Source: Chitinophagales bacterium (GTDB lineage: Bacteria; Bacteroidota; Bacteroidia; Chitinophagales; Chitinophagaceae). From it: 64,000 bases of DNA. This document shows, in pieces, positions 11,829 through 40,788 of the stretch; position 1 is the first letter of the stretch; every line of letters begins with the position of its first letter. Made by a program: the position numbers and the translations under genes. Location: NCBI GenBank assembly GCA_015654595.1, contig JAATGQ010000073.1, positions 1 to 64,000 of the forward strand, read 5' to 3'. Under the pieces are notes generated by a model. The model saw only the letters and a list, made by a program, of their open reading frames with translations, was not told where the DNA came from and ran no database searches.

Positions 11829-12296
11829 ATGACCAATCCACTCACTATCAGACCAGCCGTCCTGGCCGACATTCCCCTGCTCCGCCAATTCGAACAAGGC
11901 GTCATCAAAGCCGAACGCCCCTTCGACCCAACACTCCAACCCGACCCCATCCAATATTATAACCTCGAAGCCATGATCGCTTCACCCAACTGCGAACTGC
12001 TGGTTGCCGAACTCGACGACACAGTCATCGGCTCCGGCTATGCCCGCATCGAAGAAGCTGCCCGCCACTACCTGATCTATACCACCTATGCCTACCTCGG
12101 CTTCATGTATGTCGATCCCGCACATCGCGGCATAGGCGTCAACCAGGCCATCATCGACGCACTTCACGCCTGGTCCAAAAGCCGCGGCATTACCGAGATG
12201 CGCCTCGACGTCTACAACGATAATACCCGCGCCGTCCGCGCCTACGAAAAATCCGGCTTCACCCCAATATTGCTTACGATGCGCAAAGGGATTTGA
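11829..12296 (+). CDS. GNAT-family N-acetyltransferase
   Basis: Acetyl-CoA-dependent acetyltransferase of 155 aa. The start at MTNPLTIRPAV is preferred to the longer ORF because the GNAT fold begins directly there. The acetyl-CoA loop reads VDPAHRGIGVNQAIIDAL, a near match to the Q/R-x-x-G-x-G/A motif, and the last part LDVYNDNTRAVRAYEKSGF is the typical GNAT C-terminal strand-helix. Acceptor substrate unknown. It is the last native-looking GC-rich gene before the AT-rich cassette. Confidence 0.9.
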   Translation: MTNPLTIRPAVLADIPLLRQFEQGVIKAERPFDPTLQPDPIQYYNLEAMIASPNCELLVAELDDTVIGSGYARIEEAARHYLIYTTYAYLGFMYVDPAHRGIGVNQAIIDALHAWSKSRGITEMRLDVYNDNTRAVRAYEKSGFTPILLTMRKGI

Positions 12297-12363: not shown

Positions 12364-13197
12364 ATGAATCAGTTTGGAGGAAGCTGGACAGAGGCCAAAA
12401 TGGAAATCATAGTAAGTTATGCGAAAGCATATCTCACTATAATGAATAAACAATCCTGGGTTAAAACATTATATTTTGATGGATTTGCAGGTTCGGGGCT
12501 GATTGTTTCAGACGGGTCAGATGAAATAAAGAAAGGAACGGCACTTAGAATCCTCGATATTGTAACACCTAAGCCTTTCGACATTTATTATTTTGTAGAA
12601 TTGGATTCCGACTATAAAGAAGCGCTCGAACATACTATAAGCACTAAATATCCTCAAAGAAATACCCATGTCGTACAAGAGGACTGTAATCAGAAGATTG
12701 TAAGCATGGCTAAGTTTTTGAATAACAACAAAAATCATCGAGCTTTGGCTTTTATAGATCCTTATGGGATGTCAGTAAATTGGAAATCGATCGAAGCTTT
12801 AAAAAATCTAGGTATTGATCTTTGGATATTAGTACCAACAGGTTCTGGCGTAAATAGACTTCTTAAAAACGACGGCAATATTAGAGATGCATGGATTATC
12901 CGACTTGAAAATTTCCTTGGCATTTCAAAAGAAGACATTTTGAAGCATTTTTATAAAAGGCAAACAACTAACACATTATTCGGAGAAGAAACACAACTTA
13001 AAAAAGAACAAAACATAATTCTTAGAATAGGAGAATTATATAAAAAGAGACTCAATGAAGTGTTTAAATATGTATCGGAATCCTTCATTATGAGAAACTC
13101 AAATAATGCGATAATGTATCATTTCATGATGGCAACAAACAATCCAAACGCATTAAAAATTGCGAACCATGTCATCAAACCAAAATACAAATTATAA
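12364..13197 (+). CDS. tcmP: Three-Cys-motif partner protein TcmP
   Basis: 277-aa protein of the TcmP family, named because it accompanies a three-Cys-motif (Gp37/Gp68-like, DUF5131) protein, which indeed follows. The fold looks methyltransferase-like: FDGFAGSG (38-45) resembles an AdoMet-binding motif I, and FIDPYG (130-135) resembles the DPPY-type motif of amino-methyltransferases; these are my readings, not proven activity. The stop overlaps the next start (TAATG). The gene is strongly AT-rich compared with its neighbours (17 of 60 G+C at 12421-12480 by hand count), pointing to recent transfer. Molecular function is unknown. Confidence 0.88.
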   Translation: MNQFGGSWTEAKMEIIVSYAKAYLTIMNKQSWVKTLYFDGFAGSGLIVSDGSDEIKKGTALRILDIVTPKPFDIYYFVELDSDYKEALEHTISTKYPQRNTHVVQEDCNQKIVSMAKFLNNNKNHRALAFIDPYGMSVNWKSIEALKNLGIDLWILVPTGSGVNRLLKNDGNIRDAWIIRLENFLGISKEDILKHFYKRQTTNTLFGEETQLKKEQNIILRIGELYKKRLNEVFKYVSESFIMRNSNNAIMYHFMMATNNPNALKIANHVIKPKYKL

Positions 13198-13928
13198 TGG
13201 CACAATCAAGTATAGAATGGACTGAGTTGACCTGGAATCCTACTACAGGTTGTTCCAAAATATCTGCAGGCTGCAAAAATTGCTACGCAGAAATAATGGC
13301 CAAACGACTTCAAGCTATGGGATTAGACAAATACAAAGATGGATTCAAAATAGCCATACATCAAGACACATTGTCCATTCCTTATACTTGGCGCGGTTCA
13401 AAATTAGTCTTTGTCAATTCGATGAGCGACTTATTTCATCCGGCAATACCAGAAGAATTCATTATTAAAGTTTTTGAAGTAATGAATAACACTCCTCAGC
13501 ATACCTACCAAATCTTAACAAAACGCGCAGAAAGATTATTTAAATTAAATGACAAATTAAACTGGACCGATAATATTTGGATGGGAGTATCAGTTGAAAA
13601 CGATAAGGTTCTTGAGAGAATTGATTTTTTAAGGGAAACAAACGCCAGGGTAAAATTTCTTTCTTGTGAACCTTTACTGGGCGCATTAAAAAGTCTCAAT
13701 CTCCATTATATTGATTGGGTAATCGTGGGAGGAGAAAGCGGCAAAAAAGCCAGACCCATGAACGAAATTTGGGTATGGGATATAATGCAGCAATGTCGGG
13801 ACGCAGAAGTAGCCTTTTTCTTCAAGCAATGGGGTGGTAAAAACAAAAAAAAATCTGGTAGAGAGTTAGGGGGCAATACATACAATGAAATGCCCTTACT
13901 TAAACAACGTGCACTAGCTGCAATCTAA
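13197..13928 (+). CDS. DUF5131 / phage Gp37-Gp68-family three-Cys-motif protein
   Basis: 243-aa protein with the family opening IEWTELTWNPTTGCSKISAG. The three cysteines Cys19, Cys26 and Cys29 (C-x6-C-x2-C, GCSKISAGCKNCYAE) recall the iron-sulphur triad of radical-SAM enzymes but with wider spacing. Further conserved-looking pieces are LTKRAERL, WMGVSVEN and GGESGKKARPM. Homologues occur in phages and mobile islands. It is translationally coupled to tcmP and shares its AT-rich composition. A radical-SAM-like or photolyase-like chemistry is possible but unproven; the pair may act on nucleic acid (inference from the methyltransferase-like partner). Confidence 0.88.
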   Translation: MAQSSIEWTELTWNPTTGCSKISAGCKNCYAEIMAKRLQAMGLDKYKDGFKIAIHQDTLSIPYTWRGSKLVFVNSMSDLFHPAIPEEFIIKVFEVMNNTPQHTYQILTKRAERLFKLNDKLNWTDNIWMGVSVENDKVLERIDFLRETNARVKFLSCEPLLGALKSLNLHYIDWVIVGGESGKKARPMNEIWVWDIMQQCRDAEVAFFFKQWGGKNKKKSGRELGGNTYNEMPLLKQRALAAI

Positions 13929-14143: not shown

Positions 14144-14353
14144 TCAATCTGCCCGCAAACTCTTCACCGGGTTTGCCATCGCCGTCTTCAAACACTGTAA
14201 GGCGATCAGCCCAAACGCAATGAAAAAGATCACCGCCCCGACAAAAAGATAGGGCGCGATATTCTGCGTGATCCGATAAGCATAACTCTCCAGCCATTTA
14301 TTTGTAACCGCGTACGCCAGCGGCCAGGCAATCAGATTAGCCATAAGGATAGG
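14144..14353 (-). pseudogene. C-terminal remnant of an FtsX/MacB-like ABC transporter permease
   Basis: The 66-aa ORF ends KTAMANPVKSLRAD and contains ANLIAWPLAYAVTNKWLESY, the last transmembrane helices and tail of the solo permease family. The intact paralogue at 21797-24241 ends AAMANPVESLRTE with LPIAWWLTHKWLQGFAYR in the same place. Homology extends a few codons upstream of the apparent start (about LNGPILM) and then stops in unrelated sequence, so roughly 90% of the gene is missing. The break lies on the side away from the tcmP cassette, facing the GH109 gene. This is a deletion scar or rearrangement junction, not an expressed protein. Confidence 0.8.
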
Positions 14354-14513
14354 CCCGTTTAGTACCCTATTGAATTACAATTATCTCGCTACTGACGCGC
14401 AGGTCCAGCTGTCCGGATTCAAACAGGTATTGTCCGTTTGGCTGCCGCAATCCGGTCGCCGCCCTCTGGCTCGTCCCTCCAGCTTGCCGCGGCGTCCTTC
14501 TCCCCCAATTCGA

Positions 14514-14561: not shown

Positions 14562-15971
14562 ATGAGAAGAAAAGATTTCCTCCGCCAAACCGGCCTGGCC
14601 GCTATGGCCCTTGCCACACCCAAATCACATCTCTTCGGCGCAGCTGCAGCAGCGGGCAACACCGCCCCATCAGACCATAAAGTCCCCGCTATCCCGTCGG
14701 GATCCGCCGGCACCAAGGTCAGGATCGCGGTTATAGGGACCGGTCTTCGCGGGCAAAGCCACCTCAGCCTGCTGGCTCGTCGCAGTGACGTCGAAGTCAT
14801 CGCGATATGCGATGTGGACGACAGGATGCTCGACTCCGCAAAAGCCATCTTCTCAAAAAAAGGGCTGCCTCTGCCAAAAGTATATACTGGTGACCCCTAT
14901 GCCTGGCGTCAGCTGTTAGCGCAGCAATCCCTCGACGGCGTACTGATCGCCACTCCCTGGGAATGGCACAACGAAATGATTATCGGGGCACTCGATGCGG
15001 GTTTGAAATATGTGGCTACCGAAGTCATCCTGGGACTGACTCTTGACGACCACTGGGCCGTCGTCAAGGCCGCAGAAAAACACCAGGCCCACGTGATGAT
15101 GCTCGAGAACGTCTGCTATAGAAGAGACGTCATGGCCGTCCTCAACATGGTAAGACAGGGACTGTTCGGCGAATTGATCCACCTTCAGGGGGGCTACCAG
15201 CACAACCTCCGTGACGTAAAGTTCAACGATGGCAAACAGGCTTATGGCGGCGGCTGTGAATTCGGAGAAAAAGCCTTCTCCGAAGCCCGCTGGCGGACCC
15301 AACACTCGGTCTTCCGCAACGGCGACCTCTATCCCACACACGGCATCGGACCCATCGCCAATTATATCAATATCAACAGGGGCAACAGGTTCACGTCCTT
15401 GTGTTCGTTTTCATCCAAGGCGCGTGGCCTCCACGACCATATCGTAAAGCAATGCGGCCCCAACCATCCCAATGCCGCTGTCAAGTTCAAACTCGGCGAC
15501 GTAGTAACCACCTCGATCAACTGCGCCAATGGCGAGACCATCCTGCTTCAGCACGACACTAACCTGCCCCGCCCCTATTCCCTGGGCTTCCGGGTACAGG
15601 GAACCAACGGGCTGTGGATGGACGTCGCGCAAAGCATTTATATCGATGGACAATCAAAGTCCGACGAATGGGACCCCTCATCGACCTGGCTGGAAAAGTA
15701 TGACCATCCGCTGTGGAAACGCTGGAGCAAGGAATCCGAAGGGGCAGGCCACGGCGGAATGGACTTTTTCGTGGTACAGGCCTTTATCGAATCGATCAAA
15801 CGCGGTACGCCGACACCGCTCGACGTATACGACGCAGCAAGCTGGAGCGCCATCACTCCGCTGAGTGAAGCCTCTATCGCCGGGGGCAACAAAACCGTAG
15901 AGTTCCCGGATTTTACTTCTGGGAAGTGGGCGGATCGTAAAACCCTCTTTGCCCTTACCGACGAGTATTAA
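14562..15971 (+). CDS. GH109-type NAD-dependent glycosidase (Gfo/Idh/MocA fold), likely alpha-N-acetylgalactosaminidase
   Basis: 469-aa exported enzyme. The start MRRKDFLRQTGLAAMALA resembles a Tat or Sec signal and excludes the junk N-terminus of the longer ORF. Gfo/Idh/MocA dinucleotide-binding domain: VRIAVIGTGLRGQSHLS and ICDVDD. GH109-specific stretches follow: TPWEWHNEM, MMLENVCYRRDVMAVLNMVR, GLFGELIHLQGGYQHNLRDV, and NGDLYPTHGIGPIANY with NINRGNRF. Characterised GH109 enzymes remove terminal alpha-GalNAc using a tightly bound, recycled NAD+. A LacI operator sits just upstream. Fold and family are well supported; exact substrate is inferred. Confidence 0.85.
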   Translation: MRRKDFLRQTGLAAMALATPKSHLFGAAAAAGNTAPSDHKVPAIPSGSAGTKVRIAVIGTGLRGQSHLSLLARRSDVEVIAICDVDDRMLDSAKAIFSKKGLPLPKVYTGDPYAWRQLLAQQSLDGVLIATPWEWHNEMIIGALDAGLKYVATEVILGLTLDDHWAVVKAAEKHQAHVMMLENVCYRRDVMAVLNMVRQGLFGELIHLQGGYQHNLRDVKFNDGKQAYGGGCEFGEKAFSEARWRTQHSVFRNGDLYPTHGIGPIANYININRGNRFTSLCSFSSKARGLHDHIVKQCGPNHPNAAVKFKLGDVVTTSINCANGETILLQHDTNLPRPYSLGFRVQGTNGLWMDVAQSIYIDGQSKSDEWDPSSTWLEKYDHPLWKRWSKESEGAGHGGMDFFVVQAFIESIKRGTPTPLDVYDAASWSAITPLSEASIAGGNKTVEFPDFTSGKWADRKTLFALTDEY

Positions 15972-40332: not shown

Positions 40333-40788
40333 ATGGATTTGGAGTGGTATGAATTTGAGGTAGTAGGAGATTATTCGGAATACGAGTTTAATAGTATTGG
40401 GGCAAAAGGTATTATAAAGAAGAGCGTTAAATTTACCCCTTTCAAAGCCGGGAATGCCATTTTTATCAATCTCTCTTTTGGTGACAAAGACAGCAAGACA
40501 GGAAAGGTTGACGACGGTGTAATAACGAACAATGGCGATCCTGAAAAGGTGTTGGCAACCATCGCATTTATCGTGATTCTATATCTGGACCTACATCCTG
40601 ATGCGCTTATTTACGCCGAAGGTCGTACACCTGCCAGGACCAGAATGTATCAAATGAGTATAAATCGAAACTCTAAAGAGATCAGAAAAAAGGTTTCAAT
40701 TTATGGTTTTACTGAAGACAATGAGTTACAACCTTTTAAAAGAAAAATCAATTATACCGCATTCCTGATCACAAAAAAAACTTTCTGA
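40333..40788 (+). CDS. DUF6934-like small cytoplasmic protein
   Basis: 151-aa protein without signal peptide or membrane segment. Sequence features such as YEFNSIGAKGIIKKSVKF, FINLSFGDKDSKTGKVDDG and ALIYAEGRTPARTRMYQM fit the Bacteroidota DUF6934 group as I remember it. Composition is more AT-rich than the genes on either side. A 59-codon gene follows 31 bp downstream and shares its terminator, so the two form a small operon. Function unknown; such accessory two-gene units can be toxin-antitoxin-like, but nothing here proves that. Confidence 0.72.
   Translation: MDLEWYEFEVVGDYSEYEFNSIGAKGIIKKSVKFTPFKAGNAIFINLSFGDKDSKTGKVDDGVITNNGDPEKVLATIAFIVILYLDLHPDALIYAEGRTPARTRMYQMSINRNSKEIRKKVSIYGFTEDNELQPFKRKINYTAFLITKKTF

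Follow-up and report, generated by a model that had tools for sequence, protein, structure and literature searches.

Results

Genes and base composition of the locus

The sequence analysed, referred to below as the window, is a stretch of 64,000 nucleotides from a Chitinophagales bacterium (assembly GCA_015654595.1, contig JAATGQ010000073.1). The gene pair studied here and its immediate surroundings are listed below, along with the source of each assignment.

11829 to 12296, forward strand: left flank, GNAT acetyltransferase gene of host-like GC content (profile match; neighbour of the GH109 gene in genome G004)
12364 to 13197, forward strand: TcmP (three-Cys-motif partner), 277 aa, class I AdoMet-methyltransferase-like (TIGR04474, PDC-M41A, AF2 model)
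13197 to 13928, forward strand: DUF5131 (phage Gp37/Gp68 family), 243 aa, predicted radical-SAM-type protein (PF07505, PDC-M41B, AF2 model)
14144 to 14374, reverse strand: gene scar, left from the C-terminal part of an FtsX/MacB-type ABC permease gene whose body is missing (by eye)
14562 to 15971, forward strand: right flank, gene of the GH109/Gfo-Idh-MocA family (profile match)

The TAA stop codon of TcmP (13195-13197) and the ATG start codon of DUF5131 (13197-13199) have one base in common, at position 13197. The GC content is 33.5% for TcmP and 37.9% for DUF5131, whereas the 39 other genes of the window average 51.8 +/- 3.4%; GC3 values are 0.31 and 0.34, respectively, against 0.61 +/- 0.06. 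The difference in GC content from the flanking sequences was negative for 53 of 58 TcmP/DUF5131 pairs examined, with a median of -5.3 points, and the window pair showed the largest drop (-16.8 points). On the right side, the reverse-strand frame at 14144-14374 ends with ...MANPVKSLRAD, in which the C-terminus of an ABC permease of FtsX/MacB type can be recognised by eye. The stop/start overlap, the AT-richness of the cassette relative to its neighbours and the adjacent gene scar had been pointed out in a preliminary description of the locus, and all of them were confirmed. No intrinsic terminator was found, and the window has no tRNA gene. A second ORF of low GC content (37.5%, 151 aa) is located at 40333-40785 on the forward strand, within surroundings of about 52% GC.

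Family and predicted fold of TcmP

TcmP scores 159 bits against TIGR04474, well above the curated cut-off of 53, and matches the PADLOC profile PDC-M41A over its full length with 415 bits. Its AF2 model, predicted with a pLDDT of 92.7, retrieved 111 PDB matches at E <= 0.001 in a fold search, with methyltransferases leading: the RlmJ-family structure 2oo3 (E 1.4e-6), Trm1 in second rank (E 2e-6) and many other class I enzymes. At the profile level, hhalign gave an alignment of TcmP with E. coli RlmJ that spans about 138 columns and takes in motifs I and IV (E 1.7e-5, probability 78.5%); a weaker match was obtained with the more divergent TcmP alignment A2. As judged from the model, TcmP is a METHYLTRANSFERASE-fold protein, whose class I AdoMet-methyltransferase fold is nearest to RlmJ. 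Three sites are relevant to this comparison:

12397 to 12399, forward strand: TcmP Lys12, invariant in alignments A2 and A4
12478 to 12498, forward strand: TcmP motif I, DGFAGSG, residues 39-45, aligned with YLDTHAGAG of RlmJ
12757 to 12768, forward strand: TcmP motif IV, DPYG, residues 132-135, conserved in the TcmP alignment

Both motifs had already been read as AdoMet-methyltransferase-like, and profiles and predicted fold agree with this reading. Residues D39, G45, D132 and P133 are invariant among 35 homologues; residue 134 is Y or F in 32 of them, and residue 135 is G in 31. RlmJ requires K18 and D164, the latter from its DPPY motif (PMC3814359), and Lys12 of TcmP is possibly equivalent by position to K18. 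Motif IV of TcmP, DP[YF]G, fails the [DN]PP[YFW] pattern of RlmJ and of m6A methyltransferases, and resembles the DPFG of Trm1. Since the DPP[YF] of m6A enzymes is missing, the site may be altered or inactive; an invariant Asp and an N-terminal Lys combined with DP[YF]G suggest that TcmP either acts on a different base or is a partner devoted to recognition only.

Family and predicted fold of DUF5131

DUF5131 scores 330 bits against PF07505 (gathering cut-off 28.9) and 418 bits, over its full length, against PADLOC PDC-M41B, whereas the 81 bits obtained with TIGR04471, the family of radical SAM mobile pair protein A, are below the equivalog cut-off of 355. The protein itself gave no match to PF04055 (Radical_SAM), and a profile search against PDB sequences returned no relative. 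When its AF2 model (pLDDT 93.3) was searched against the PDB by fold, spore photoproduct lyase (SPL) occupied ranks 1 to 5, with E-values between 3e-3 and 8e-3, probabilities of 0.98-1.0 and TM of about 0.44-0.49, a modest match. Among the viral models of BFVD, several of the fold matches were radical SAM or Fe-S proteins. The predicted folds of the pair match AdoMet and Fe-S enzymes and do not refute the preliminary description, against which a structure lacking AdoMet and cluster sites would have counted. The residues concerned are the following:

13251 to 13283, forward strand: Cys19-x6-Cys26-x2-Cys29 of DUF5131, predicted [4Fe-4S] site, invariant and aligned with CX3CX2C homologues
13419 to 13430, forward strand: S75-x-S77-D78 of DUF5131, corresponding by eye to C140-T-S-D of SPL
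13518 to 13526, forward strand: T108-K109-R110 of DUF5131, invariant, part of the LTKR of mobile pair protein A and corresponding by eye to VTKY of SPL

Two alignments of 51 homologues show no variation at C19, C26, C29 and the tyrosine that follows. The spacing of the cysteines may be understood by comparison with radical SAM mobile pair protein A from a Bacteroides plasmid, which scores above threshold with both PF07505 (116 bits) and PF04055 (33.2 bits, cut-off 29.5). The NPTTGC-SKISAG-C-KN-CYA of DUF5131 aligns with NIVVGC-TIG-C-PY-CYA of that protein, and MSD and LTKR signatures are common to the two. A PA0069-family radical SAM protein was also aligned to DUF5131 through the Cys motif, with an E-value of 2e-4 and a probability of 46%. 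In these alignments, the CX6CX2C of DUF5131 is the canonical CX3CX2C with an insertion of three residues. The radical-SAM likeness of the triad, proposed in the preliminary description, is therefore retained, while its wider spacing does not denote a separate type of cluster. On alignment and predicted fold, DUF5131 is a radical-SAM-type protein, which would accordingly be expected to bind a cluster and to use AdoMet.

The likeness to SPL extends by eye to CTSD...FVTKY of the latter, aligned with SMSD...ILTKR of DUF5131. In this alignment the invariant Ser75 occupies the position of the hydrogen-donor cysteine of SPL, C141 in Bs and C140 in Gt (PMC3742179); SPL-type repair chemistry is therefore not simply conserved. 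Comparison with short fragments by hhalign, of DUF5131 with 63 aa of SPL and of TcmP with 41 aa around the Trm1 motif, gave no match, so that the motif correspondences with SPL and Trm1 rest on the fold search and on inspection by eye. A search for the SPL family (PF20903) in Bacteroidota, meant to provide a comparison set, returned almost nothing.

Pairing of the two genes

The association of the two genes was evaluated in a sample of 393 Bacteroidota genomes, by considering as paired those matches located within 1.5 kb. TcmP matches over the cut-off adjoin a DUF5131 match in 46 of 53 cases, always on the same strand; conversely, 48 of 66 high-scoring DUF5131 matches have a TcmP match beside them. 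The same adjacency is found in plasmid and phage records. A TcmP match is close by at 38 of 80 DUF5131 loci from viruses or prophages. Three layouts occur, TcmP being upstream on the same strand, downstream and convergent, or downstream on the same strand. The pairing looks obligatory. An adjacency that outlasts rearrangement argues for a joint function of the two proteins, and pairing by chance was rejected because adjacency is kept across all three layouts.

Mean pairwise identity is 60% for DUF5131 and 30% for TcmP, and the distances within the two families are correlated (Mantel r 0.32, 0/999 permutations). PADLOC PDC-M30A is matched by at least 2 of the genes adjoining DUF5131 in this set; some seemingly unpaired DUF5131 genes may therefore have divergent TcmP partners. 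A 362-aa protein is encoded upstream of DUF5131 in genome G401 (L063:2288-3373 and L274:6587-7672). It gave no significant match in Pfam or NCBIfam, and may be an unrecognised TcmP subtype, as PDC-M30A matches occur within the same batch.

Insertion and mobility of the pair

The cassette is part of an insert of about 2.2 kb, absent from the same-genus genome G004. In the latter, about 74 bp separate the orthologues of the flanking GNAT (68% identical) and GH109 (75% identical) genes, and this interval holds neither the TcmP/DUF5131 cassette nor the permease scar. At the insert ends, a search for direct or inverted repeats returned only matches of chance size, with no target-site duplication and no integrase. 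The window genome (6.03 Mb, a draft in 265 contigs) contains one copy of the pair. Within the genus sample TcmP is carried, in a patchy distribution, by 7 genomes including the window genome, and the window TcmP is 70% identical to a homologue from Mucilaginibacter, a member of another family, versus 51% to that of the same-genus genome G026. The empty site, the patchy presence and the closer Mucilaginibacter homologue together establish the mobility of the pair, which reflects horizontal transfer, or repeated loss, and not stable inheritance. The TcmP of one genome (G032, L032/L206) is reduced to a frame of 230 aa, which the profile search splits, beside an intact DUF5131; this fits the turnover expected of a defence-type gene.

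The pair is also found in prophages and plasmids. DUF5131 accounts for at least 597 matches in viral contigs, 159 phage records and 406 plasmid records, and many phages carry DUF5131 with no recognised TcmP. The pair is a mobile genetic unit, as the preliminary description had supposed.

Genomic neighbourhoods

In order to compare gene contexts, 64 loci with DUF5131, drawn from the phylum sample, were analysed along with 20 control stretches, most of them belonging to genomes that also contributed a locus. Specificity or methylase genes of type I restriction-modification (R-M) were found at 17 of the 64 loci, from 8 families, and at none of the 20 controls (Fisher p = 0.005, a value that ignores relatedness, 8 of the 17 loci coming from one family, f38, and that is based on loci of differing length and few controls). 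HsdR genes were present at 13 loci, again against none of the controls, raising to 18 the loci with any type I R-M gene; the one at L294 was confirmed by NCBIfam. The usual order, on one strand, is hsdR - TcmP - DUF5131 - hsdS - hsdM (L222, L236, L289, L294, L308). At the remaining 46 loci, including that of the window, the stretch analysed has no type I R-M genes.

In agreement with these counts, PADLOC scans identified 230 profile families near the pairs, type I R-M being the commonest, and 22 near the controls, both counts being inflated by related profiles. In a second batch, other restriction and candidate defence families were found near pairs; few defence genes were found in the neighbourhoods of close relatives. 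No recognised defence gene adjoins the window copy: the flanks are ordinary metabolic genes and the window has no HsdR, PA0069 or AbiEi homologue, so that a defence island in the window itself was rejected. The link to defence envisaged in the preliminary description is supported by the R-M operon neighbourhoods, by the Sinorhizobium and Gordonia phage contexts given below and by the PADLOC listing discussed below. The contexts, to be judged as either stable housekeeping or mobile, proved variable and often of prophage, plasmid or R-M type, and do not refute it.

Further contexts were recorded. On pSymA of Sinorhizobium meliloti 2011 (L265:9962-15623) a DUF5131 gene, two TcmP genes of differing subtype and, at the Hna position, a helicase-like gene adjoin one another; SMa2243, a TcmP of Sinorhizobium, and the Hna defence helicase SMa2245 are co-regulated (PMC12445080). 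In four close-relative genomes and in G423, a PA0069-family radical SAM gene is located directly upstream of the pair; at L207, L209, L212 and L026 (also L235) the distance to TcmP-DUF5131 is about 43 to 250 nt, on the same strand. As the PA0069-like protein resembles mobile pair protein B, the pairing of a DUF5131-like with a PA0069-like protein recurs; in mobile pair A/B the DUF5131-like protein comes first and the PA0069-like one second. The second, divergent DUF5131 of G026 (L021:1453-3269) has a C5-cytosine DNA methylase gene as direct neighbour, on the same strand and about 15 nt away. In G243 (L291/L082) DUF5131 adjoins hsdS-hsdM, and a DUF2326 / ABC-3C CTD10 protein holds the preceding position in place of TcmP. 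In G028 (L210:8238-9059) a gene for an antitoxin of AbiEi type, by sequence, is directly upstream of the pair, and AbiEi matches are present in the PADLOC tally of the batch containing L210.

Discussion

The best reading of these data is that TcmP/DUF5131 is a mobile, defence-linked module for nucleic-acid modification, in which substrate, chemistry and anti-phage activity are proposed from relatives and context. For the window copy, we consider the chances about even that it is a horizontally acquired PDC-M41 member that installs a phage-protective base modification. In such a mechanism, DUF5131 would bind a [4Fe-4S] cluster through C19, C26 and C29, cleave AdoMet and carry out a radical reaction on a DNA or RNA base, while TcmP, with its RlmJ-like fold, would recognise and/or methylate the same nucleic acid. 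The pair would install, or less likely remove, a base modification guarding the cell from phage, and would be a usual passenger in type I R-M operons, prophages and plasmids. The mark might be placed on self DNA, as protection, on phage nucleic acid, as an attack, or on tRNA or rRNA. The use of AdoMet by both proteins is suggested by the folds and the invariant residues, a nucleic-acid base as substrate by the relatives (RlmJ, Trm1, SPL) and the R-M context, and a benefit to the host during phage attack by the R-M embedding and the mobility. A more specific version, in which the radical-SAM enzyme and the RlmJ-like methyltransferase jointly write a novel base modification, or inflict phage-specific base damage, as an immunity module plugging into type I R-M operons, is put forward tentatively, the balance being against it.

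Repair of nucleic acids is the first alternative, and a rather unlikely one: an SPL-like DUF5131 would reverse a lesion or crosslink, or strip a modification from phage DNA, and TcmP would assist by recognising the damage or transferring a methyl group. SPL is indeed the nearest solved fold, the SxSD...TK motifs are common by eye, and a PA0069-family radical SAM gene precedes the pair in the five genomes mentioned above; on the other hand, the hydrogen-donor cysteine of SPL is replaced by Ser75, repair systems do not usually show so patchy and mobile a distribution, and embedding in R-M operons fits defence better.

The same embedding weighs against the modification of host or phage tRNA or rRNA, for abortive infection, toxin-antitoxin action or translation control and not for DNA protection, as it points to DNA, and so does the DUF5131 relative beside a C5-cytosine DNA methylase. 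Such a role, which we hold to be unlikely, would account for the closest methyltransferase relatives of TcmP being enzymes that modify rRNA and tRNA, and for the DP[YF]G motif, similar to that of the tRNA enzyme Trm1. Viperins are radical SAM anti-phage proteins, and a comparable small-molecule pathway may be imagined, in which DUF5131 would perform radical chemistry on a nucleotide or other small substrate and TcmP would methylate or use the product; the likeness of both proteins to AdoMet enzymes and the defence context would suit it. It appears improbable, however, as the TcmP relatives RlmJ and Trm1 act on RNA bases, and DUF5131 gave no NCBIfam viperin match at E <= 10.

Genes protective to the cell and expressed in lysogens are often located between the integrase and the immunity repressor of temperate phages, which is where the pair lies in the Gordonia phage Fairfaxidum; with the embedding in host type I R-M operons of 8 Bacteroidota families, this makes it very improbable that the pair is selfish prophage or plasmid cargo, used for counter-defence or for protection of the element's own DNA and captured by chromosomes with no role in host defence, despite the abundance of DUF5131 in viral contigs, phages and plasmids and the many phages in which it has no recognised TcmP.

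The evidence makes of a widespread named pair a concrete and testable proposal: an expanded-motif radical SAM protein and an RlmJ-like methyltransferase, repeatedly found in type I R-M operons. If this proves correct, radical chemistry on nucleic acids would join the known means of phage defence, and a function would be available for a protein family that phages and plasmids carry in their hundreds.

Comparison with known systems

The pair had been presented as a candidate undescribed system, and this view does not hold: both families are named by NCBI and Pfam, and the pair is already listed in PADLOC-DB (2023) as the phage-defence candidate PDC-M41A/B, with PDC-M30 as a related candidate. 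The PDC names reportedly originate from Payne et al. (bioRxiv 2024). In the window, the two proteins that define PDC-M41 are both present and adjacent; no difference from PDC-M41/PDC-M30 was found, and the window copy is another member of the listed candidate system PDC-M41. The PADLOC entry gives no function, and text searches for a functional paper on the TcmP/DUF5131 pair found none, returning passing mentions only. New here are the assignment of DUF5131 to the radical-SAM type, with an explanation of its Cys spacing, that of TcmP as RlmJ-like, the embedding in type I R-M operons of several families, evaluated with controls, and the empty site in G004.

Radical SAM mobile pair protein A (TIGR04471) and DUF5131 are homologous and have the GC..C..CYA, MSD and LTKR signatures in common; the former has CX3CX2C in place of CX6CX2C, and its partner B (TIGR04470) is a second radical SAM protein, whereas the partner of DUF5131 is methyltransferase-like. 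SPL, the nearest solved fold, shares SxD and TK motifs by eye, but differs in the spacing of the cluster motif and in having a cysteine as hydrogen donor where DUF5131 has a serine; DUF5131, moreover, has no spore context. RlmJ, the 23S rRNA m6A2030 methyltransferase, is nearest to TcmP both by profile and by fold, and the motif I and motif IV regions align; unlike RlmJ, TcmP has DPYG instead of DPPY, is alignable over only about half of its length, and is mobile and paired with DUF5131. A parallel for the genomic arrangement is offered by DarTG2, which is embedded in a type I R-M island of EPEC, an island anti-phage by experiment (PMC12255303): its proteins are unrelated to TcmP and DUF5131, but there too a second defence module is found within a type I R-M locus.
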